In this document: piece by piece, positions 16,966-30,276 of the stretch
Numbering within the stretch: position 1 is the first letter of the stretch
Layout of the letters: each line of letters starts with the position of its first letter
Origin: Candidatus Edwardsiibacteriota bacterium
GTDB taxonomy: Bacteria > Edwardsbacteria > AC1 > EtOH8
DNA length: 38,290 nucleotides
Assembly: GCA_020053305.1 (NCBI GenBank)
Contig: JAGVNJ010000043.1
Location: 1 to 38,290, forward strand
Reading direction: 5' to 3'
The notes under the pieces: model-generated
Databases searched by the model: none
Seen by the model: only the letters and a program-made list of their open reading frames with translations
Told to the model about the DNA's origin: nothing
Position numbers and translations under genes: made by a program

Positions 16966-17031
16966 TTTGTGCTTGTTGTGTGCTGAGTAGAATTGCAAAT
17001 ATTTTTATATAAAACTAAAGGCATAAATAAT

Positions 17032-18828
17032 ATGATTACTATTGATATAATAAAGAAGTATGATTGGGAAAGTAAACTTGTTCAAGCAGATAAACGAAGT
17101 TGCATGAACTATAGTTCCATATTTTTTTCGCAAGCTAAAGAATGTGAAAAAAGCGGGGACCAAAACGGCAATGATGTATATCGTTTGCTAGGTGATATTA
17201 CATCCATGCATATAGACAATGATGACCCAAATAATCCGTTTAAGCCCCAAGTTGTGATGAATGGGAAAAGGTCCGCTTTATTAGATGATTTTAATGAGGA
17301 AATATTAGCTATTATTAGTGAATTAATAATAGTAACAACAAATACGGTAATCAAGGCCAGATTTGCAGATATATTATGGGTCGCACAAAATAAATATAAA
17401 GCTGCTCAAATAGCATCAGAAGAATATCTCAATAACTTTATGAGTATTGATGTGAGCAAGGAATGGGTGTATCACATTAATGCATTAGAACGAGGGTTTT
17501 TTCTTGCTGGGGTGCTTGGAAGAAACAAAGAATTATTTTTGAAATATGTATCATTTTGTGAGGGGCTCATAGATTCAATTGCCTCGGATGAAAAAACAGC
17601 ATGTTGCGTACGTTTTTTAGAGTTGTTGCATAAACAAAGAGCCGGTAATTTTAACAAGATGGCGATAACAGCAGAACAAATAGCAGATAACAATAACGCA
17701 TCAGGCAATGGATTTTTAGTCCGGCAATATTATGAAATATCATCTCGGCTGTATAGATTATCAAAAAAAGAAGAAGAATCGCAAAAAGTCTTAATAAAAA
17801 AGGGTTATAGCTTTGTCACTGAGGCTGAGGCAGTTGTTGGGAGACCAGGGCAAGGATATATAGCTGCTGTACATTTTTTAGCTAATGCAATTGAGTGTTT
17901 AAGACAAAATAACGCACCCAAAGAAAAAATAGATGAGTTACACAAAAAACTACGTGAATGGCAACAATTATCTTTAGCTGAAATGAAAGGTTTTGGACAA
18001 AATGTTGATATAAGTGAAATAGTTAAATCAGTTAGTAATGGTGTGTGTGGCAAGAACCTCCTTGATGCGATATTTTATTTAGCTTTAGGGCACCCTTTGA
18101 TAAACAAAAAAGAGCTTCGACAAACAACAGAAGAAAATATAAAGAAATATCCAATCCAGCATTTGTTCAAACATACAACATTAGCTAAGGATGGACGTGT
18201 CGTCGCAGAAAAACCATCAATTCTAAATGCAACGCCAGATGTTGCCGAAGATGTCTTTGAAGCTGAAATGTTTTCTCAATTAAGTCGTGTCATATGGCCA
18301 ATGCGAGTGCAATGCTTTATCGATACTTGTAGGGTAATTGTTAGAGATGAACATAGACCTTCCCTCAGAGATTTAGAATTTCTTGTCTATAATAATCCAT
18401 TCATTCCACCAGGGCACGAAGAAATATATCTAAAAGGCATTCATTCTGGTTTTTATGGGAATCTGGATTTATGCGCACATTATTTAACCCCACAAATTGA
18501 AGAGTCCATCCGCTATGTATTACGGCAAAATGGCATAGTGACTTCAAAACTTGATTCGAAACTTATACAGGAAGAGAGGCGATTGGGCACACTTCTTTCC
18601 ATGCCTGAAACCGTAGATATCTTTGGGGATGGACTTGTTTTTGAATTGCGTGGCTTATTGTGTGAAAAACATGGTTGTGATTTAAGAAATAGACTTGCGC
18701 ATGGCTTTATAGATTATAAAGAATGTTTTAATTATGATGTTTTACTCCTTTGGTGGCTTGTAATTAGACTATGCGCATATCCTATTTATATGGCAACCAA
18801 AAGTACTTCAGAAGAGATAAAACCATAA
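17032..18828 (+). CDS. DUF4209-like protein with HEPN-type RxxxxH motif, AT-rich
   Basis: A 598-residue mostly helical protein with no signal peptide or membrane segment. The C-terminal third carries FIDTCRVIVRDEHRPSLRDLEFLVYNNPFIPPGHE and then CDLRNRLAHG at about 548-558. R552 and H557 form the Rx4H motif of HEPN ribonuclease folds, and the arrangement resembles DUF4209 proteins as I remember them. The DNA is markedly AT-rich compared with the GC-rich kbl paralogues on both sides, and codon use differs (many ATA, AAA and TTA), which points to acquisition by transfer. ATG 17032 is preferred over an in-frame TTG at 16993; only AAAGG is seen as a weak ribosome site. Possible roles are RNA cleavage in defence or stress, but family assignment is from memory and not certain. 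Confidence 0.6.
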   Translation: MITIDIIKKYDWESKLVQADKRSCMNYSSIFFSQAKECEKSGDQNGNDVYRLLGDITSMHIDNDDPNNPFKPQVVMNGKRSALLDDFNEEILAIISELIIVTTNTVIKARFADILWVAQNKYKAAQIASEEYLNNFMSIDVSKEWVYHINALERGFFLAGVLGRNKELFLKYVSFCEGLIDSIASDEKTACCVRFLELLHKQRAGNFNKMAITAEQIADNNNASGNGFLVRQYYEISSRLYRLSKKEEESQKVLIKKGYSFVTEAEAVVGRPGQGYIAAVHFLANAIECLRQNNAPKEKIDELHKKLREWQQLSLAEMKGFGQNVDISEIVKSVSNGVCGKNLLDAIFYLALGHPLINKKELRQTTEENIKKYPIQHLFKHTTLAKDGRVVAEKPSILNATPDVAEDVFEAEMFSQLSRVIWPMRVQCFIDTCRVIVRDEHRPSLRDLEFLVYNNPFIPPGHEEIYLKGIHSGFYGNLDLCAHYLTPQIEESIRYVLRQNGIVTSKLDSKLIQEERRLGTLLSMPETVDIFGDGLVFELRGLLCEKHGCDLRNRLAHGFIDYKECFNYDVLLLWWLVIRLCAYPIYMATKSTSEEIKP

Positions 18829-20387: not shown

Positions 20388-20759
20388 ATGGAGCAGCTAA
20401 ATGCAATCACCGAACAAATAATCGGGTGTGCCATAGAAGTGCACAAGAACTTAGGGCCGGGACTGCTGGAATCGATTTACGAAAAGGCGCTCTGTTGTGA
20501 ACTGGACCTAAGAGGAATAAAACATGAAAGCCAGGTAATGGTCCCGATCCTTTATAAAGGAAAACTGTTGGGGGAACATAGGCTTGATTTGCTGGTCGAA
20601 AACGAAATAATAGTTGAAATAAAGGCCGTGGAGCGCCATGAACCGGTTTTCAACGCTCAGCTTCTTTCGTATCTAAAGCTAACTGGTAAGCATCTCGGTC
20701 TTTTGGTTAATTTCAATGTTCCTGTCTTGAAAAATGGTATTAAAAGAATAATCCTCTGA
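20388..20759 (+). CDS. GxxExxY protein, PD-(D/E)XK-like
   Basis: A 123-residue protein of the GxxExxY family. The name-giving motif is G25-LL-E28-SI-Y31, and the downstream D67...E77-I-K79 fits a PD-(D/E)XK nuclease-like core. It ends with [19 protein letters not shown], typical for the family. The biological role is not known; members occur in many copies in some genomes and in repeat-rich contexts. Here it is bracketed by inverted CACAGAG repeats on both sides (20157-20272 and 20755-20869), so repeats and gene may move or be copied as a unit. It is between kbl and an M23 peptidase. ATG 20388 has only weak AGGGAT upstream. Confidence 0.9.
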
Positions 20760-22070: not shown

Positions 22071-22568
22071 ATGAAAAAGCATGTCAAAATAATAATGATC
22101 GCGACCCTGATGATAAGCACAAAATTAGCTTTCGGTCAGACGGTTGCTTTATTGACCCCCAGCGACATCTCCCGGACCGTTAATGTGTCGGTAAGCGTGG
22201 CCAAAAAGGCCCGGATCGAAATTCTGAGCGCAACAAATATTTTAAGTGTCAGCATCGAAGATAAAACCAGGGGATATGTTGATCTGCCGAAAGCCATTGT
22301 TCTAAAAGTGTGGTGCAACAGCATTGATGGCGCTAGGGTAATGGGGCAGATAGATCCTTCAAGCAATGAGATAAAAGGGAAGATGCTGTACAGGCTGTCC
22401 GGCGAAAAGGGTTTCCATGAAGCCAATGGGAGCTTGCACGATATATACGAAAGTTATAAGATCGAGAGAGGCTCTAAAGTTTCATTGGATATAAGATATC
22501 TATTGGCCGACAATACGCCGGCTGGCGACTACCAATTTGAAGCTTCGTTTGTGGCCGAGCCCAAATGA
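22071..22568 (+). CDS. Small exported protein, pilin-like or Ig-like
   Basis: A 165-residue protein with a clear signal peptide (1-23, ending KLAFGQ) and a beta-rich mature part beginning RTVNVSVSVAKKARIEIL. It contains a sugar-independent alternating strand pattern and ends in AGDYQFEASFVAEPK. The general style (short exported beta protein, VNVSVSV near the N-terminus, AGxYxF/TxTxxxxP near the end) is shared with the protein at 23326, suggesting both are subunits of the same surface structure. GGAGAG precedes the ATG. It is separated from that gene by a tRNA and repeats. Family not recognised; resemblance to spore-coat-U/DUF4402-type fibre subunits is only structural impression. Confidence 0.65.
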   Translation: MKKHVKIIMIATLMISTKLAFGQTVALLTPSDISRTVNVSVSVAKKARIEILSATNILSVSIEDKTRGYVDLPKAIVLKVWCNSIDGARVMGQIDPSSNEIKGKMLYRLSGEKGFHEANGSLHDIYESYKIERGSKVSLDIRYLLADNTPAGDYQFEASFVAEPK

Positions 22569-22632
22569 TCATGACTTTTATTGTCCGCTATCAGGGGCTA
22601 TGAATCGAATATAAAATAGAGGTGAAAAATGT

Positions 22633-22669
22633 AACAGCTGAGGAAGATAAGAATATGTCCTTAGCTGTT
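22633..22669. other. Stem-loop without T-tract
   Basis: A 12-bp stem (22633-22644 with 22658-22669, one G-U pair) and 13-nt loop lie 64 nt after the stop of the preceding gene. Just upstream, AGAGGTG at about 22618-22624 is followed by ATG-TAA (22629-22634), a minimal start-stop. It may help end transcription or be a processed RNA element. Confidence 0.5.
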
Positions 22670-22696
22670 CTGCTATAGCGCTGGGCTGGGTAGTGC

Positions 22697-22726
22697 TTGA
22701 CAAAGCAGCCTAAAATGATATATACT
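22697..22726 (+). promoter_or_regulatory. Sigma-70-type promoter for tRNA-Val
   Basis: A consensus -35 box TTGACA at 22697-22702 and a -10 box TATACT at 22721-22726, with an 18-nt spacer. The predicted start is about 25 nt before the tRNA. Confidence 0.75.
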
Positions 22727-22758
22727 ACAATTACACAAAGGCCTTATTTTATCATTTT

Positions 22759-22836
22759 GGGCGATTAGCTCAGCTTGGTTAGAGCGCCTGCTTTACACGC
22801 AGGAGGTCGGGGGTTCGATCCCCTCATCGCCCACCA
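22759..22836 (+). tRNA. tRNA-Val (anticodon TAC)
   Basis: A complete cloverleaf: acceptor stem GGGCGAT/ATCGCCC, D arm GCTC...GAGC, anticodon stem CCTGC/GCAGG with loop TTTACAC giving anticodon TAC (reads GTA valine codons), T arm with TTCGATC loop, and encoded CCA. It is 78 nt with CCA. Its 3' end is duplicated 106 bp downstream. Confidence 0.96.
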
Positions 22837-23028
22837 TATTGACACCAGAGCTTGGCAGAAGCCCCGATAGCGGAGCGTATCGGGGCACCCACTACGAATT
22901 GACGCAGGGGTCGCCCCGATTTATCGGGGTCATCGCCCACCATATTGACACCAGAGCTTGGCAGAAGCCCCGATAGCGGAGCGTATCGGGGCACCCACTA
23001 CGAATTGGCGCAGGAGGTCGCCCCGATT
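22824..23028. repeat. Tandem 106-bp repeat that starts in the tRNA-Val 3' end
   Basis: Copy 1 (22824-22929) and copy 2 (22930-about 23028) both begin TCATCGCCCACCATATTGAC, that is, with the last 13 nt of the tRNA including CCA. Each also contains a CCCCGAT...ATCGGGG palindrome and a GCAGG(A)GGTCG segment like the tRNA anticodon/variable arm, so the units look partly tRNA-derived. They are nearly identical apart from a small indel and a few changes near the right end. Confidence 0.85.
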
Positions 23029-23253
23029 CGTTGAGGTTATTGAGTACCACTCTATATGCGCTCACTATTCAGTTTTTGTTATGAAATTCGATATTTTTGT
23101 ATTAGATATGATAATATAAAAGCACAAAATTGCAAAACGCAAGACGAATATTTGCACTTAAAATTTCGGACAAATTGATTCACAAACATATTGTATGTGC
23201 CTGGAAGCAAAAGCACAAAATGTAGTATACAAAAACAATGGGCTAAATGGAAT

Positions 23254-23273
23254 AATAATTGCATGCAATTATT
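23254..23273. promoter_or_regulatory. Perfect 20-bp palindrome upstream of the pilin-like gene
   Basis: AATAATTGCATGCAATTATT is fully self-complementary and lies 52 nt before the start codon at 23326. Its position and symmetry suit a dimeric regulator's operator. The surrounding 23029-23325 stretch is AT-rich leader sequence with no supported gene. Confidence 0.45.
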
Positions 23274-23325
23274 GTTAAGACAACAAGTTGAAAAATAATT
23301 AACAACTTAATAAGGAGGTAGATCC

Positions 23326-23835
23326 ATGAAAAAACTTTTGCTTGCCAGCTTAGTAGTTGTCCTGTTTGCCGGGATGGCAATGGCCCAGCCTGCGGACTTA
23401 ACAGCCGATGTGAATGTACAAGTAACTGTCAACGGCGTTTGGTCAATTACGTTGGATGTGGCAGCAGTTGATTTTGGCACCTTGGAGCCGGGTGATATTG
23501 CAACGCCGGCAAACGTGGTTGCAACCGTAAGGTCGAATCAAAAGATACCTTGGGGTTTGCAGCTTAACAAAGATCGGGATCTGACTAATGATGTCGCTTT
23601 GGAATCGATCCCGTCCGCCAATTTCACTTATACTGGAGGTGGACCTGGAGCCGGCCTTTGGACTAATGGAGAGTTCTTTTTAGCGCCGACCACCGCTTAT
23701 CTGTGCGCCGCCACCGAATACAAGGTAGCAGCCGGGCTTGCATTGACAACCACTCTAAACTTAACCATCCCTGCACCTGCGGCTGCCGGCCTGTATACCA
23801 ACGTCATTACCTATACTTTGACCGCCACCCCGTAA
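23326..23835 (+). CDS. Pilin-like exported beta protein
   Basis: A 169-residue protein with a signal peptide (1-21, ending AMAQ) and a beta-rich mature part: ADVNVQVTVNGVWSITLDVAAVDFGTLEPGD, a middle with NKDRDLTNDV, and a C-terminal AGLYTNVITYTLTATP. A start FGxLxPGD plus a final AGxYxxxVTxTxT is the pattern of subunits such as spore coat U/DUF4402 and of chaperone-usher fibre subunits, whose last strand is swapped. The Shine-Dalgarno AAGGAGG at ideal spacing is the best in the window, and the terminator right after the gene suggests higher expression than the two following genes. It is the probable major subunit of the fibre locus. Fibre assembly is inference. Confidence 0.7.
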   Translation: MKKLLLASLVVVLFAGMAMAQPADLTADVNVQVTVNGVWSITLDVAAVDFGTLEPGDIATPANVVATVRSNQKIPWGLQLNKDRDLTNDVALESIPSANFTYTGGGPGAGLWTNGEFFLAPTTAYLCAATEYKVAAGLALTTTLNLTIPAPAAAGLYTNVITYTLTATP

Positions 23836-23852
23836 GCTGGCACTTCAACAAG

Positions 23853-23887
23853 GCGGGGCATCACTTATTTAAGGGGTGCCCCGCTTT
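23853..23887 (+). terminator. Hairpin terminator or attenuator between pilin-like and chaperone-like genes
   Basis: GCGGGGCA (23853-23860) pairs with TGCCCCGC (23877-23884), extended by partly paired bases and followed by TTTT. It lies between the pilin-like stop and the next start at 23915. Partial readthrough would yield much subunit and little assembly machinery. Confidence 0.8.
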
Positions 23888-23914
23888 TGACTTTAAATTT
23901 AGGCCCCGATAATA

Positions 23915-24988
23915 ATGAAAAATATCACTGCAATAATACTTATAATCCTTTTATCCGTATCCTTTGCTTTGGGCCAGGGGGCACTTTCCATAAACGTTTG
24001 GCCATCCAGGGTGGACATTAGCGTTGTGCCGGGTGAGAGCCGGACCGGAGTTATCAGCGTAGATAACAAGGGGAAGGAAAAAACCCAGGTATTATGTTAT
24101 ATTACTGATGTCGGAATGGATATATACGGTGAACTTCTTTTTCCCGAGGGAGGAACTCTGGCCACATCATGCGAATCCTGGTTTTTGGTCAATCCGGAAA
24201 ATTTCTTTCTTTCTCAAGGTACCAACCAGAAGATCCGTTATACTTTAAAGGTTCCGGATAATGCCTCGGGAACCTATCTGGCATCAATTTTTTTTCATAC
24301 CAAGCCTCAGGAAGGGGCCAAGAACAGCGGCAGCCGTTTATCAGTCAGGGTTGGCACCCTGTTCGTCATCAATGTTGCCGGCACCGGGCACAAGGATGGG
24401 GAGTTGAGCTCGCTATCATTGCACAATACGGTTAAAGCCACCACCGCCCAGGTAGAACTGGGGGTTTTAAATAAAGGGAATGTTCTGATCCGTCCCAAGG
24501 GTACGGTGGAAATAAAAACCAATGATGGCTGGACGGTTGACAAATTAATCATTAATGATGATAATCAGGCGGTTTTGCCAAATTCCGAGCGAATCTTTAG
24601 GATCCCGCTTGTCAACATAAAACCCGGTAACTATAATCTAGTTGCCATGGTGGATTACGGAGGGGCCGAGATTTTATCCGGAGAGACCATGGTCAATCTG
24701 GTGGCGACAGAAGTCCCCCGGCACGACTGGCCGATACCGCAGTCGAAAGGCCCAATAAAAATCTCCGGCAAAGCGGCCAAGCCGATAGAGCCGGTGGTCA
24801 AGCTTTCTCCCGAGGAGATAAAAAGCCTTTATAGTCTGGCCACCAAGCAATATACGGCAGGAGATTATCAATCTTCTTTGTCCACCTGGCAGAAACTTTT
24901 AAAAGCCGATCCTGGAAATACCACCGCCAGAAAGAACATGGAACGGACCAAAACCAAACTGGACGCCTTGAAAAAAATAAAAGGTTAG
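23915..24988 (+). CDS. Periplasmic chaperone-like Ig protein with C-terminal TPR-like module
   Basis: A 357-residue exported protein: signal peptide 1-20, then two Ig-like regions. The first (about 22-155) begins SINVWPSRVDISVVPGESRTGVISVDNKG, as PapD-type fimbrial chaperones and related Ig proteins do. The second (about 160-265) contains ELGVLNKGNVLIRPKGTVEIK. A Pro-rich linker leads to residues 296-357, a helical TPR-like module (LSPEEIKSLY...GDYQSSLSTWQKLLKADPGN...LKKIKG). That module recurs at the end of the next protein, with 34 of 62 positions identical by eye. The gene abuts the next one with no gap (stop 24986-24988, ATG 24989). Chaperone action on the preceding subunits is inferred from layout. 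Confidence 0.7.
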   Translation: MKNITAIILIILLSVSFALGQGALSINVWPSRVDISVVPGESRTGVISVDNKGKEKTQVLCYITDVGMDIYGELLFPEGGTLATSCESWFLVNPENFFLSQGTNQKIRYTLKVPDNASGTYLASIFFHTKPQEGAKNSGSRLSVRVGTLFVINVAGTGHKDGELSSLSLHNTVKATTAQVELGVLNKGNVLIRPKGTVEIKTNDGWTVDKLIINDDNQAVLPNSERIFRIPLVNIKPGNYNLVAMVDYGGAEILSGETMVNLVATEVPRHDWPIPQSKGPIKISGKAAKPIEPVVKLSPEEIKSLYSLATKQYTAGDYQSSLSTWQKLLKADPGNTTARKNMERTKTKLDALKKIKG

Positions 24989-27430
24989 ATGCGCAACTTT
25001 CTTAAAATCATATTTATACTGCTGATAACCGGCCCTGCCTTGACATGGGCTGCGGAGCAGCTTTATTTTACCTATGGTTTTGAGGAGGGCAATAGCTTGA
25101 TCGGGCAATACTACGGTCAGCAGGAATACCGCCATACCCTGAAAAGTGCTTTGGAAAAGAAAATGGACAATTTTAAGCTGTTGTCCGAATTCTCAATGTA
25201 TTACAGCAGCCTGGACCAGACACACCTTCAAACCGTCAGGCTGGCATTCAATCAGATATCTTTCGGCCACAGCCTGCTCAATGTAGGCTTGGGGGATAAC
25301 AACCCTAACCTACCCTACAATGCCGGTCTCTGGAATAACCGCCTACGGGGCGCCAGTGCCGATTATCAGTATAATAATTTAACTGCCGGAGTATTCGGGG
25401 GAACCCCCTCGGACCTTTATCGGGAAAGCGCTTCATTAAGCAGCCGCAATGTGCTTGGTTCATACTTGGGTTATAAACCGGCCAATTGGTTTTCCGAAAA
25501 GATATTCATCTATAAGGAATCCAGCAGCCTGTCTGCCGACTCCCTTTACCGGAAAGCAACCGGGTTTGGCCAGCAGATGGATATAACGATGTCCCAGGGC
25601 TTAAGTATAATGATGGCTACGGCCTGGAAGAAACGCCAAGAGGAGAGAACCGGAGTGATCATTTCCCGCTCGGCTCCTTGGGTTTCTACCAATATCTCCT
25701 GGACTGCAAAAAAATACAGTTTCTCAGCCGGCCTGGACTTTCTGGGAGCCAATTTCCGTCCGCTACAGACCAAGAATTATTACGGCCCCAGGTTTTACGC
25801 CAGCTGGAAGCCCAATGAGATATTCGGGCTGGACGGCAGATTCATCAACTATAATGCCGACGGCGACACCCTCTATCCCATGATCACCAATACCTGGGGA
25901 GCGGGCTCCAGTTTCAAATTATCAAATCTTCCCTCTCTGAAGGTCGGCTATACCAACCGAGATAACAAAATTAACTGGGGCGGGCCTAATGCCAGACGTT
26001 ATGTTTCCGATGGACAAACGATAGAATTAAGCCAAAAGTTTAACCAATTGGAAATGAAATTCAAATACCAGGTTGAAAACCGGGAAGAGAAAATATATCA
26101 GTCAATGGATGCCACCAGGCACCTCTGGATGGTAAAACCGCAGTACCGGTCCCAGCTGGCCACTTTCTGGCTGAGCGGGGAATTTGACCGGTGGAGCGAT
26201 AACCGGAAGATAGCCTCCGGATATTACAACCGCTACCGGGCCGGAGCCAATGCCGGATTGTGGAGCGGCAGCCGGGCCATTGTCGAAATCGGATTCAATC
26301 ACCGGGTCGACCAACACGATAGAAATAACACAAGCTTAATTGCCAGCCTGAATTTGAAATTCAATCTTTCGAAAAAATATTTGCTGGACCTCTCCTGGTG
26401 GAACGAGAACAATATTGCCCAGGATACCGGCTTCTTCTACCTGTGCGACAGGTCGCGGCTGGGTCTTTTCATTACCAGAAGGATCGACATCTCCGGCAAC
26501 GATATGGAGGGGTTGGTATTTCTGGATGCCAACAAGAATGGCCTTCAGGATGCCGGGGAATTCGGATTGCCCGGGATAATCTTGAATCTATCCAATGGTA
26601 GGAAGACCATCACCGATGCCAGGGGCAAATATTCCTTTACCAATATCAACAGCAGCAACCCAACCATTAAAATAGACCTGGCCACCCTTTCGGCCGAATA
26701 CAACATCATAGGCACTGGGGAGAAGCAGGCATCCCTGGGGGGTTGGAGGTCCACCCTGGTCAATTTTACCGTTTCGGCCCTGGGCGGAATCAAAGGGCGG
26801 ATATTTGTGGACAACAACAATAACGGGGTTTTTGACGGGGACGATTACGGAATGTCCGGGGTTATGGTTATAATACAGCCCTCCAATACCGCTGCAATTT
26901 CCAACGGTGGCGGCATGTTTCGCATCACTAATGCTCCCACCGGTCAGCAAACTCTGAACATTGATCTTAACAGTATTCCACCGGATTATGAGCTAAAAAG
27001 CGAACCTTCCCGGTTGATAAACATTAAGCAGGGGGAAATATCAAACCACCTGGAATTTGCGGTGGTGAAAAAGATCCGGCCGGTAAAGAAAGTGGTGTTC
27101 GGAGGAGTCAGCACTATAAAAATTGACACCACTCCCAAGACGGAAGCGAAACCGAGATTAGCCGGAAGCGAAAAGCAAGCAGAGAAAGCGATTAAACAGC
27201 AGGATAGGGTCAGCATTAAAGCCAAAGAACCGTCAACGCCGAAGTTATCAGCGGCCGAAATTGATGCCCTGTACAAGGAAGGCACCAAGCTGTTCAGCTC
27301 CGGGGATTATCAGGGGGCCTTAAGGATCTGGCAGAAAATATTGACAGCAGATCCGGGACATAGCCAAGCTAAAAGAAATCTGGAAAAAACCCGACAAAAG
27401 CTGGAGGCTTTGAAAAAAGCAAAAGGATAA
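24989..27430 (+). CDS. Usher-like outer-membrane barrel with SdrD B-like domains and TPR-like C-terminus
   Basis: An 813-residue exported protein. After the signal peptide (1-21), residues about 25-505 are rich in alternating aromatic and polar strands, as in a large beta-barrel. Residues 508-590 and 603-690 are two SdrD B-like/carboxypeptidase-regulatory-like modules, each opening with a calcium-type DxNxNGxxD loop (LDANKNGLQDAGE and VDNNNNGVFDGDD). A basic linker leads to a 62-residue TPR-like module at 752-813, near-duplicate of the end of the upstream chaperone-like protein. The start touches the upstream stop, giving translational coupling. By position it would be the outer-membrane secretion pore for the exported subunits, but it lacks recognisable PapC-type usher motifs. 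A strong terminator ends the operon. Confidence 0.7.
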   Translation: MRNFLKIIFILLITGPALTWAAEQLYFTYGFEEGNSLIGQYYGQQEYRHTLKSALEKKMDNFKLLSEFSMYYSSLDQTHLQTVRLAFNQISFGHSLLNVGLGDNNPNLPYNAGLWNNRLRGASADYQYNNLTAGVFGGTPSDLYRESASLSSRNVLGSYLGYKPANWFSEKIFIYKESSSLSADSLYRKATGFGQQMDITMSQGLSIMMATAWKKRQEERTGVIISRSAPWVSTNISWTAKKYSFSAGLDFLGANFRPLQTKNYYGPRFYASWKPNEIFGLDGRFINYNADGDTLYPMITNTWGAGSSFKLSNLPSLKVGYTNRDNKINWGGPNARRYVSDGQTIELSQKFNQLEMKFKYQVENREEKIYQSMDATRHLWMVKPQYRSQLATFWLSGEFDRWSDNRKIASGYYNRYRAGANAGLWSGSRAIVEIGFNHRVDQHDRNNTSLIASLNLKFNLSKKYLLDLSWWNENNIAQDTGFFYLCDRSRLGLFITRRIDISGNDMEGLVFLDANKNGLQDAGEFGLPGIILNLSNGRKTITDARGKYSFTNINSSNPTIKIDLATLSAEYNIIGTGEKQASLGGWRSTLVNFTVSALGGIKGRIFVDNNNNGVFDGDDYGMSGVMVIIQPSNTAAISNGGGMFRITNAPTGQQTLNIDLNSIPPDYELKSEPSRLINIKQGEISNHLEFAVVKKIRPVKKVVFGGVSTIKIDTTPKTEAKPRLAGSEKQAEKAIKQQDRVSIKAKEPSTPKLSAAEIDALYKEGTKLFSSGDYQGALRIWQKILTADPGHSQAKRNLEKTRQKLEALKKAKG

Positions 27431-27699: not shown

Positions 27700-30276
27700 A
27701 TGAAAAAGATATCACTGGTAATAATACTTTTCAGTCAGATATTATTTATAAGACAAACTCTGGCCGCGGATAATTCTTTCATCCTTAAATATCCCGTCTA
27801 TATATCCGGCCAGGCAACCTCCGGCACCGGGAATCCCTTTGCCGTTCTGGTGGGAATTGTCCCGGATACCACCGGCGAGAAATTTGTGGGGAGGTGCCGC
27901 ATCGGCAGTTCCAGCAGCAACGCCGGGAACAATCATTTCCACTGGCTTGATAGCACAGCGTGGCGAACCGCGTACCGTAATACCTGGGGCAATGACAACT
28001 CATGGTATATTGATTCTAAACGCACCGTAACTGCAGATTCAGGGGAAACCACAAAGGTTTGGTATGTTTCCAAATGCGATACAACGCCACAATCTCAATA
28101 TATCATGGCCAGAGTTCAGAGACTGATTAACGATAGCGTTAATAGCGGAAGTAGCCGAGATTCGCCCCGCCAGCTACTGAACGTGATGGATATCTCCACC
28201 CAGGGCGCCTGGATGGAGGGCCATATCTACGGCGATCCGTCATACGCTACGTCGCTTTCGAATTATGTTGTTCTGGCCTACCGGGCGGATACCATCGTCG
28301 GTTCCTACATCACCGAGAACAACTATGTTGTCGAAGGATACAATTCCGGCGATCCCGGCTATATCATGTTCACGGTCCCGGCCGGGACCATCGACTCATT
28401 CAAGGTCAGGGACATGTCCGACAACCCGGTCAATTTCTACGTAAAAAGCACTCCGCCCTGGACCATCACCGCCGGTGACACCATAAATTTCGACATCCTG
28501 CCCAATGTTCCCACCATCATCTATACCTCTCCGGCAAATAATACCGCCAATGTCGCGATAAATTCTCCCATCAAGATCGGGTTCAACAAGGCCATCAATC
28601 AGTCCAGCTTTGCCTACAGCTGCTCCACCGGGGCGGCAGGCTGGTTAGTGTCCTGGAACGGCACCAGTGATACTGCCACCCTTACCCATGATAATTTCAA
28701 CTATGTGACCACTTATAAAATCCAAGTTACTGCGGCCAAGGACCTTTCCAACAACGATCTGGTTCCGGGACCCAAGCCCAACCCTTTCCGCTTTGCCACC
28801 CAGCCGGATCCGGCCACCATACCCTTAAAAATAATCTGCCTGGATGTCGGCCAGGGAGACGCCACCTTGATTTTATCACCCTCCGGAAAATCGTTGTTGT
28901 TCGATGCCGGCGAGACCGGCAAGGGATACGGCAAGGTATGGCCTTTTTTGAGGGACAGCATACAAACCCATCACCTGGATTATACCGTGGTCAGCCACTA
29001 CCATGAAGACCATGTCGGGGGGATGGACGAGGTGATCGACAGCCTGGGAGGCAGGGATTCCATCTTAAGCTGGGGTTATGACCGGGGTGGAACCTACGCC
29101 ACGCAATCCTTTACCGATTACACTACTATTTTGGGCGCCAAACGAAAGACCATAGGATTGAACCAGGTAATTGACCTGGGCTCCGGCGTGAGCGCCAAAT
29201 GCGTGGCGGTCAACGGCCAGACCCAGGGCGACAACATCACACCTTCCGATGAGAACGACTACGGGGTGGGGCTGCTGATACAATACGGCGGGTTCAGGAT
29301 GATTGTGTCCGGCGATATGGGGGGATACAATTCGGGCGGATATAAGGATGTGGAATCCATCCTGGCTCCCGACATCGGCAAGGTCTCAGTGCTGCATGTC
29401 AACCATCACGGCTCGCAATACAGCAGCAACCCCACCTGGATAACCACCCTGGACCCCAAGGTTTCGGTCATCTCGGTGGGAAACAACGGTTATGGTCATC
29501 CCACCCAGCTGGCACTGGACCGGCTGTGCAACGATCCCGGGGCAAATAATTATATCTACCAGACGGAGCTGGGATCGGGCGGCACCATTCCCGCAGGCCG
29601 GGGGGAAATGGTGGGCAGCAACATCTGGATAGAGGTGACGGCCGATACCTTTACCGTCAACAGCAGAGACAGATATCCCAATCCGGTGCAGCTTTCTTTT
29701 TTATCCATCTATGCCGATGCCCAAGGGCGGGGCGAGGTCAAATGGCGCACCGAGAGCGAAAAAGACTGCGACAGATGGGAAGTTGAGCGGACGGATGAAA
29801 CATTTGTCGGGTATGTCAAGATCGGGGAAACAGCCGGGAACGGGACCACCAACCAGCCTTCGGAATATTTATTTACCGATCCCCATCAGCTGCCAGCCGG
29901 GGATTATTACTACCGGATCGCCCAATATGATTTTTCGGGCCGGATAACTTATTACGGGCCGGTAAAATTATCACTGGATGGCGGCGGGCCGCTGCCTGCC
30001 AAGTTTAAGCTTGGAAATAACTATCCCAATCCGTTCAGTCAGGCCACAGTTATCAGTTATCAGGCGGCAAGTGGAGGGCCGGTAAATTTATCAATCTACA
30101 ATGTGGCCGGACAGTTGGTAAGGACACTGGTCAATGATAACCGGGAGAGAGGGAAGCATCAAGCGGCCTGGGACGGCAGGGACAGCGCGGGGAAGACCCT
30201 TCCCAACGGGGTTTATCTGCTGCGGCTGTCGGCCGGAGGCGCCAGCGGTATACGAAAAATGATGCTGATAAGATAA
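27700..30276 (+). CDS. Secreted ComEC-like metallo-beta-lactamase-fold protein with sorting domain
   Basis: An 858-residue exported protein. Signal peptide 1-22; an Ig-like/unknown region to about 270; an SbsA-type Ig domain (about 275-365, SPANNTANVAINSPIKIGFNKAI); then a ComEC/Rec2-type MBL domain (about 375-650) with LDVGQGDATLILSP, the metal motif H433-x-H435-x-D437-H438 (SHYHEDHVGG), VSGDMGG and VNHHGSQYSSNP. An FN3-like segment follows (about 665-770) and residues about 775-858 are the FlgD-like C-terminal sorting domain (NYPNPFSQATVISYQ ... NGVYLLRLSAGG). The membrane competence domain of ComEC is absent, so this is a free extracellular hydrolase. ComEC MBL domains degrade DNA strands; a nuclease or phosphodiesterase role is plausible, not shown. 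Confidence 0.88.
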   Translation: MKKISLVIILFSQILFIRQTLAADNSFILKYPVYISGQATSGTGNPFAVLVGIVPDTTGEKFVGRCRIGSSSSNAGNNHFHWLDSTAWRTAYRNTWGNDNSWYIDSKRTVTADSGETTKVWYVSKCDTTPQSQYIMARVQRLINDSVNSGSSRDSPRQLLNVMDISTQGAWMEGHIYGDPSYATSLSNYVVLAYRADTIVGSYITENNYVVEGYNSGDPGYIMFTVPAGTIDSFKVRDMSDNPVNFYVKSTPPWTITAGDTINFDILPNVPTIIYTSPANNTANVAINSPIKIGFNKAINQSSFAYSCSTGAAGWLVSWNGTSDTATLTHDNFNYVTTYKIQVTAAKDLSNNDLVPGPKPNPFRFATQPDPATIPLKIICLDVGQGDATLILSPSGKSLLFDAGETGKGYGKVWPFLRDSIQTHHLDYTVVSHYHEDHVGGMDEVIDSLGGRDSILSWGYDRGGTYATQSFTDYTTILGAKRKTIGLNQVIDLGSGVSAKCVAVNGQTQGDNITPSDENDYGVGLLIQYGGFRMIVSGDMGGYNSGGYKDVESILAPDIGKVSVLHVNHHGSQYSSNPTWITTLDPKVSVISVGNNGYGHPTQLALDRLCNDPGANNYIYQTELGSGGTIPAGRGEMVGSNIWIEVTADTFTVNSRDRYPNPVQLSFLSIYADAQGRGEVKWRTESEKDCDRWEVERTDETFVGYVKIGETAGNGTTNQPSEYLFTDPHQLPAGDYYYRIAQYDFSGRITYYGPVKLSLDGGGPLPAKFKLGNNYPNPFSQATVISYQAASGGPVNLSIYNVAGQLVRTLVNDNRERGKHQAAWDGRDSAGKTLPNGVYLLRLSAGGASGIRKMMLIR

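Follow-up and report, generated by a model that had tools for sequence, protein, structure and literature searches.

Five genes of interest lie on the forward strand of the DNA analysed here, a stretch of 38,290 nucleotides (the window) that is the entire contig C33 of a genome of 2.59 Mb and 99% completeness. In order, they encode a small exported beta protein (P1), tRNA-Val(tac), a second exported beta protein (Pil), a chaperone-like protein (Chap) and an usher-like barrel (Bar), as listed in Table 1. A preliminary description, made from sequence alone, had proposed P1, the tRNA, a pilin-like protein with a Shine-Dalgarno sequence, a terminator-like hairpin, an Ig protein and a large barrel, and all of these were confirmed. 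Bar starts at the base immediately after the stop codon of Chap.

Table 1. Features of the locus, with positions in the window
Feature	Position	Strand	Description and basis
P1	22071..22568	+	165 aa, signal peptide; small exported beta protein
tRNA-Val(tac)	22759..22836	+	ARAGORN; identical placement in L028, L029, L031
Shine-Dalgarno of Pil	23312..23319	+	AAGGAGGT, from sequence; present in L028, L029, L031 too
Pil	23326..23835	+	169 aa, exported; WxL/pilin-like beta protein
Candidate N-terminal donor strand of Pil	23404..23433	+	ADVNVQVTVN, alternating hydrophobic; sequence pattern only, inferred
Pil-Chap hairpin	23850..23888	+	Candidate partial terminator; fold of intergenic stretch
Chap	23915..24988	+	357 aa; two-domain PapD/WxLIP-like periplasmic Ig protein, C-terminal TPR hairpin
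G1-like strand of Chap	24335..24376	+	RLSVRVGTLFVINV, candidate donor strand; aligned by hhalign with EcpB ASARIGTILVVAP; role inferred
TPR-like tail of Chap	24803..24985	+	From LSPEEIKSL; domain search, AF2 model
Bar	24989..27430	+	813 aa; usher-like outer-membrane barrel; AF2 and PDB matches
Barrel region of Bar	25058..26488	+	Residues 24-500; about 26 predicted strands, no plug, no N-terminal domain
GD-x16-RG motif of Bar	25292..25351	+	Compare FimD GDGYTQGDIFDGINFRG; invariant in alignment of eleven barrels
Two C-terminal beta domains of Bar	26498..27070	+	SdrD_B / CarboxypepD type, at usher C-terminal-domain position; domain search, model
TPR-like tail of Bar	27245..27421	+	Weak Pfam match, clear in AF2 model

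Neighbourhood and conservation of the locus

In the sampled set, the closest relatives all belong to one family and number nine genomes, beyond which only the domain is shared, a pattern consistent with a small candidate phylum. A scan of genome contigs gave a single close relative. Within the genus the gene order is kept: M23 peptidase, P1, tRNA-Val, Pil, Chap, Bar, a metallo-beta-lactamase (MBL)-fold protein, a Cache protein and a DnaJ protein. Chap and Bar are present in all ten family genomes, with a gene order that varies among the more distant genera. L034 and L036, from another genus, have a second chaperone that lacks the TPR tail and precedes the barrel, and L034 has a small exported protein in two copies. 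No classical usher or chaperone matches were found in the genomes of the family.

P1 is retained across the genus. Its C-terminus (AGDY..) is similar to the end of Pil, and a domain search found no family for it; from its position, which is the only basis for inferring a role, it could be a minor or tip subunit. The tRNA gene is a conserved syntenic neighbour that lies outside the machine. Immediately 3' of it, and taking in its 3' end, is an 85-nt direct repeat (22824-23014, 99% identical, copies 106 nt apart), possibly a tandem duplication or the remnant of an integration site.

Three further features of the surroundings were noted. The MBL-fold protein (27700-30276), found 3' of Bar throughout the genus, has a type IX-like sorting tail. 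A low-GC ORF (16993-18828, 611 aa, DUF7380/DUF4209) lies between two paralogous KBL-like aminotransferase genes and matches the PADLOC candidate defence family PDC-S39 (3e-161); relatives hold other genes in this gap. A PDDEXK_3 gene (20388-20759) is absent from the corresponding place in relatives.

The probable subunit and the chaperone-like and barrel proteins

Pil is likely to be the major subunit, with the reservation that there is no structural model for its fold. It contains the first of the two WxL motifs, as WGL at residues 76-78, and in its C-terminal AGLYTNVITYTL it has Y-T-L at the place where WxL domains carry the second. The threshold of the Pfam WxL model (PF13731) is not reached. 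At the profile level, Pil aligns with the WxL-type proteins of genome G264 (hhalign 3.2e-6, score 41.7; one of them, shuffled, scores at most 20.4), and more weakly with Bacillota WxL domains (2.8e-4, score 31.5; shuffles up to 18.6). On these profile matches, Pil resembles WxL domains. Outside the phylum, the Pil profile finds relatives (29-33% identity) in the two lineages L078 and L086. Genome G264 encodes two WxL-domain proteins at L120 (92-1547) and also has the chaperone family.

An assignment of Pil to DUF4402 or spore coat U was rejected, with no significant match to either (best DUF4402 E 0.79, hhalign 0.006). Nor did Pil match subunits of the spore coat U/ECP type or of classical chaperone-usher systems, and its profile found no match in the PDB.

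The hairpin between Pil and Chap is strong and GC-rich and is followed by a run of T's; it is retained in L028, L029 and L031. A simple scan for consensus terminators did not list it.

The AF2 model of Chap (pLDDT 87, 29 sequences) has two Ig-like domains, a flexible loop, a G1-like strand and a TPR hairpin. When the model was compared with the PDB using Foldseek, the matches were, in order, WxLIP of E. faecium (7e-13), CfaA (2.6e-11), CsuC (3e-10), DraB, FimC, Caf1M, SafB, CupB2 and PapD (1e-8), with TM-scores to the known chaperones of 0.5-0.6, normalised by target. The sequence profile of the family gives matches as well. Among the E. coli chaperones compared, EcpB is the best (hhalign probability 93.5, E 2.3e-7, score 50.3; best of 100 shuffles 27.6), in an alignment that spans the G1 strand, and a profile of six classical chaperones also matches (probability 86.8, E 4.3e-6, score 45.3; shuffles up to 19.3). 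The profile also matches Bacillota WxLIP (hhalign 2e-10) and the PDB sequence EfmWxLIP1 (3.5e-10). The single Chap sequence does not match the WxLIP Pfam models (DUF916-DUF3324), the homology being seen at the level of the family profile. Since WxLIP has no direct match to EcpB, the Chap family bridges the two. As a yardstick, the sequence of EcpB alone, an accepted chaperone, gives no match when compared in the same way with the classical chaperones.

The G1-like strand is the candidate donor strand; the loop preceding it is of low confidence in the model. In archaic and alternative chaperones, an arginine in strand F anchors the subunit carboxylate (PMC4654587), and it is not conserved here (Chap GTYLASIFF, EcpB RYYRIVWF). 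The classical anchor residues are Arg8 and Lys112 of PapD. In the Chap family, R/K in P-S/P-R/K-V and R in RVGT are frequent, with a register that is not fixed structurally. In the model, the C-terminal transmembrane helix of WxLIP is absent from Chap, and the TPR hairpin is in its place.

The AF2 model of Bar (pLDDT 79, pTM 0.58, 21 sequences) shows a barrel, two beta domains, a disordered linker and a tail. Its twelve highest matches in the PDB are all FimD or PapC (5.5e-18 to 8e-11), followed by Ig arrays (7e-9, the best non-usher), Mtr (8e-7) and OmpT/AlgE (4e-6). The TM-scores to FimD are modest, about 0.35, with a large global rmsd; given these values and the pTM, the comparison supports the usher fold class and not its detail. 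The first strand begins at residue 24, so that the N-terminal recruiting domain of ushers is absent. The C-terminal domains comprise SdrD_B (2e-15) together with CarboxypepD_reg-type domains, and they align weakly, in a co-linear manner, with FimD 683-847. The tail of Bar is of the same TPR-like type as that of Chap, the two being 52% identical.

Homology of Bar to ushers was also sought by sequence. Nothing convincing was found against FimD or EcpC, with the latter of which Bar cannot be aligned, and the match to classical ushers is poor (hhalign E 0.027, score 29.6; shuffles 23.9). The usher assignment therefore rests on structure and on relatives of Bar that carry a plug, described below. 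The GD-x-RG motif was considered as an usher signature and set aside as no more than suggestive, being present in 21 of 40 barrels as against 13 of 77 other large ORFs. The window proteins match none of the PapC or PapD models of Pfam or NCBIfam, including PF00345 and PF00577.

A tandem exported pair with CarboxypepD domains and the Chap/Bar TPR tail is encoded on another contig of the same genome (G000 contig 44, L043 5014-8406). The N-terminal part of this pair differs from Chap and Bar, and a neighbouring gene appears SLBB-like by eye.

Distribution beyond the phylum

A profile of the barrel was searched over 386 genomes, and from among the matches in ORFs of about barrel length, 20 loci representing 16 families were picked on the barrel match alone. 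SdrD_B matches on their own were not accepted as evidence of homology, these repeats being found in many unrelated large or giant proteins. A relative of Chap lies near the barrel in 18 of the 20 loci (E 1e-11 to 1e-50, with a profile built without these loci), and one of the remaining two (L092) has such a relative when a wider profile is used. By chance, about 0.001 would be expected per locus (an estimate from about 112 chaperone places, roughly 1.2 Gb and 12 kb). The wider profile matches in 67 of the 386 sampled genomes, and in most of the further chaperone loci that were fetched a protein of 830-1140 aa adjoins the chaperone.

The loci of Polaromonas and Pseudoalteromonas consist of two DUF4402 genes, the chaperone and a 'carboxypeptidase-like regulatory domain' protein. 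Pairs of DUF4402 genes are present in L135-L137, and the gene set is found in Deinococcus. In the named loci the annotations are DUF4402, hypothetical or 'carboxypeptidase-like regulatory'. RefSeq calls one of the chaperones 'fimbria/pilus periplasmic chaperone' and another 'molecular chaperone', the rest being hypothetical, and gives the name 'usher' to none of the barrels. In two relatives (L093 and L135) the Pfam PapD_N model scores above its cut-off.

The barrels of L041, L092, L093 and Polaromonas have a plug at the position of that in FimD, which is absent in the family of the window. When the plug-bearing barrels of Polaromonas, Pseudoalteromonas, L092 and L093 are compared with six classical ushers, they match with E 1.7e-5 over 455 columns (score 55.7; shuffles up to 22.5); in the same test EcpC, an accepted usher, gives E 0.017 as a single sequence. 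Bar is linked to these relatives by its C-terminal domains (1e-18) and to FimD by structure only. The N-terminal modules of the barrels in other lineages include Cu_amine_oxidN1, T2SS-T3SS_pil_N, NEW3-like Ig and TPR, and the recruitment module of the barrel may thus be exchangeable.

In L099 (8687-15817), several near-identical exported proteins of 180-181 aa are encoded in tandem on the same stretch as the chaperone and barrel. Such an arrangement is what would be expected for fibres of many subunits. In L040 (5494-11333) and L109 (4057-9895), relatives of the chaperone and small exported proteins adjoin secretins and not an usher-like barrel, conceivably a chaperone-secretin variant. Given these two loci, the presence of a member of the chaperone family is not in itself proof of an usher pathway.

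Interpretation and comparison with known systems

The homologies, the folds and the gene order with its conservation are shown here by computation. On the basis of its organisation and fold, the locus is likely to work like a chaperone-usher system, and we consider it probable (about 0.82) that it represents a divergent and apparently unnamed class of such systems that builds thin surface fibres, with donor-strand exchange, export and fibre formation being inferred. It is filed apart from the classical, alternative and archaic members because the sequence models of the known families do not recognise it and it has neither the anchor arginine nor the N-terminal domain nor the plug.

The preliminary description had proposed that the locus mirrors chaperone-usher loci, with a barrel that lacks PapC-type motifs and carries SdrD B-like domains and a TPR-like tail. 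All of this held, the order being that of E. coli operons and the folds matching; that Chap has the same tail had not been stated. The tRNA had been counted in the order, which is correct only as synteny within the genus. The suggestion of an undescribed route in a candidate phylum held in part, and proved too narrow: the gene set is found also in Pseudomonadota, Deinococcota and others. Three outcomes had been named as refuting the idea, and none occurred: the barrel did not match an unrelated transport family, its best PDB matches being FimD and PapC; the Ig protein is similar in structure to fimbrial chaperones and has a family profile that matches EcpB and the classical chaperones; and the order is kept in relatives and far beyond. 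It had also suggested profile searches, of which those with DUF4402 and spore coat U gave no significant match to Pil and those with PapD and FimD succeeded through family profiles or structure, and a survey of gene neighbourhoods, which found the order kept in the genus and the chaperone near the barrel in the outside loci as described above. Overall, its reading is supported, with the qualification that the locus does not fulfil a number of the criteria, in sequence and in domains, that apply to the known chaperone-usher families.

It could be argued that the locus is instead a surface system like that of WxL and WxLIP, in which WxL-like proteins are retained by Chap at the peptidoglycan or the cell surface to form an adhesive platform, Bar is only an export pore or anchor, and no polymer is made. 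In favour of this are that WxLIP is the closest solved relative of Chap, that Pil is similar to WxL domains, and that the order of WxL and WxLIP in Pediococcus and Listeria equals that of Pil and Chap. However, Chap lacks the transmembrane helix of WxLIP, and the usher fold of Bar, the plug in its relatives and the multiple tandem subunits fit the assembly of a polymer. WxL and WxLIP are moreover predicted to bind by strand insertion (PMC10599100), which may be the same chaperone chemistry. We consider this alternative unlikely. Less likely still is that Bar is a porin or polysaccharide exporter, similar to AlgE or Mtr, that is unrelated to ushers, has acquired SdrD_B domains and has its neighbours by coincidence. 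AlgE and Mtr do appear lower in the structural list, barrels evolve fast and their general features are common; but the usher matches lead by orders of magnitude, the barrel adjoins the chaperone in unrelated genomes, and relatives carry a plug of the usher type in the right place.

In the chaperone-usher reading, which we prefer, Pil and probably P1 would enter the periplasm via Sec. Chap would bind each subunit and donate a beta strand to its incomplete fold, and the complexes would then reach Bar, where strand exchange would polymerise the subunits and a thin fibre would be exported. The TPR tails of Chap and Bar may stand in for the recruitment step, the N-terminal domain of ushers being absent, and the hairpin after Pil may, by attenuation, ensure that more of the subunit is made than of the assembly proteins. 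Strand donation, the role of the tails, export and polymerisation through the barrel, the fibre and attenuation are all inferred.

Published modelling has a hairpin strand of WxLIP completing the WxL sandwich in parallel (PMC10599100), in a paper that does not mention PapD or chaperones. By analogy with the completion of fimbrial subunits by their chaperones, we infer that WxLIP and Chap are both strand-donating chaperones. A bolder reading is that there is a separate, unnamed chaperone-usher class in many phyla, which includes forms with plugless ushers, and that its chaperone and subunit have their monoderm relative in the Gram-positive WxLIP/WxL pair. Taken as a whole, this is a reading towards which we lean by only a narrow margin. 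If it is true, monoderms and diderms share strand-donating chaperones, whose origin need not coincide with that of the usher. The known chaperone-usher families have been described as restricted to Pseudomonadota, Cyanobacteria and Deinococcus-Thermus (PMC4654587), and, should the present reading be right, a whole class, its chaperone profile matching in about one sampled genome in six, would have been missed by surveys with Pfam and NCBIfam models. If an usher has neither plug nor recruitment domain, it must be asked how its pore is gated and how it is supplied. For the Gram-positive surface family of WxLIP, whose role in the literature is mostly based on in silico analysis, the link found here suggests a function as a membrane-tethered, strand-donating chaperone.

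In the open-access literature searched, no paper names DUF4402, no title or abstract ties chaperone-usher systems to SdrD, and no paper accompanies the 2026 WxLIP structure entries. It remains possible that the system has been described under another name, in subscription papers or in preprints outside that literature.

The order of subunit, chaperone and usher is that of seven E. coli operons (fim, yad, sfm, elf, yra, yeh and ecp). With the classical systems (FimC/FimD, PapD/PapC) the locus has further in common the two-domain Ig fold of the chaperone, FimD and PapC as the best matches of the barrel and, in some relatives, the plug; two beta domains also stand at the C-terminus of the barrel, with only a weak alignment to the C-terminal region of FimD. 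An usher is expected to be a very large barrel of 24 strands, which Bar, at about 26 predicted strands, satisfies. Unlike the classical systems, the window has no PF00345 or PF00577 match, no N-terminal domain and no plug, and it has C-terminal domains of SdrD_B/CarboxypepD type and TPR tails on both chaperone and barrel. Among the EcpB, CfaA and CsuC systems, EcpB is the best E. coli match by sequence, while by structure the fimbrial chaperones that come closest are CfaA and CsuC; the differences are the missing strand-F arginine, the lack of a subunit of spore coat U/ECP type and a barrel that cannot be aligned with EcpC.

The WxL/WxLIP (DUF916-DUF3324) clusters of Bacillota have in WxLIP a clear sequence relative of Chap and in WxL a domain that Pil resembles, and in Pediococcus and Listeria the WxL gene directly precedes that of WxLIP, as Pil precedes Chap. 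In contrast, an outer-membrane barrel is missing from these clusters, the C-terminus of WxLIP is a transmembrane helix and that of Chap a TPR hairpin, and their second W-x-L is Y-T-L in Pil. The DUF4402 loci of Pseudomonadota, for example that on plasmid 2 of Polaromonas JS666, differ in the N-terminal domain and plug of their barrel and in having subunits, annotated as DUF4402, that are only weakly similar to Pil, but they resemble the window in gene order, in the chaperone (2.6e-16) and in the C-terminus of the barrel (1e-18).
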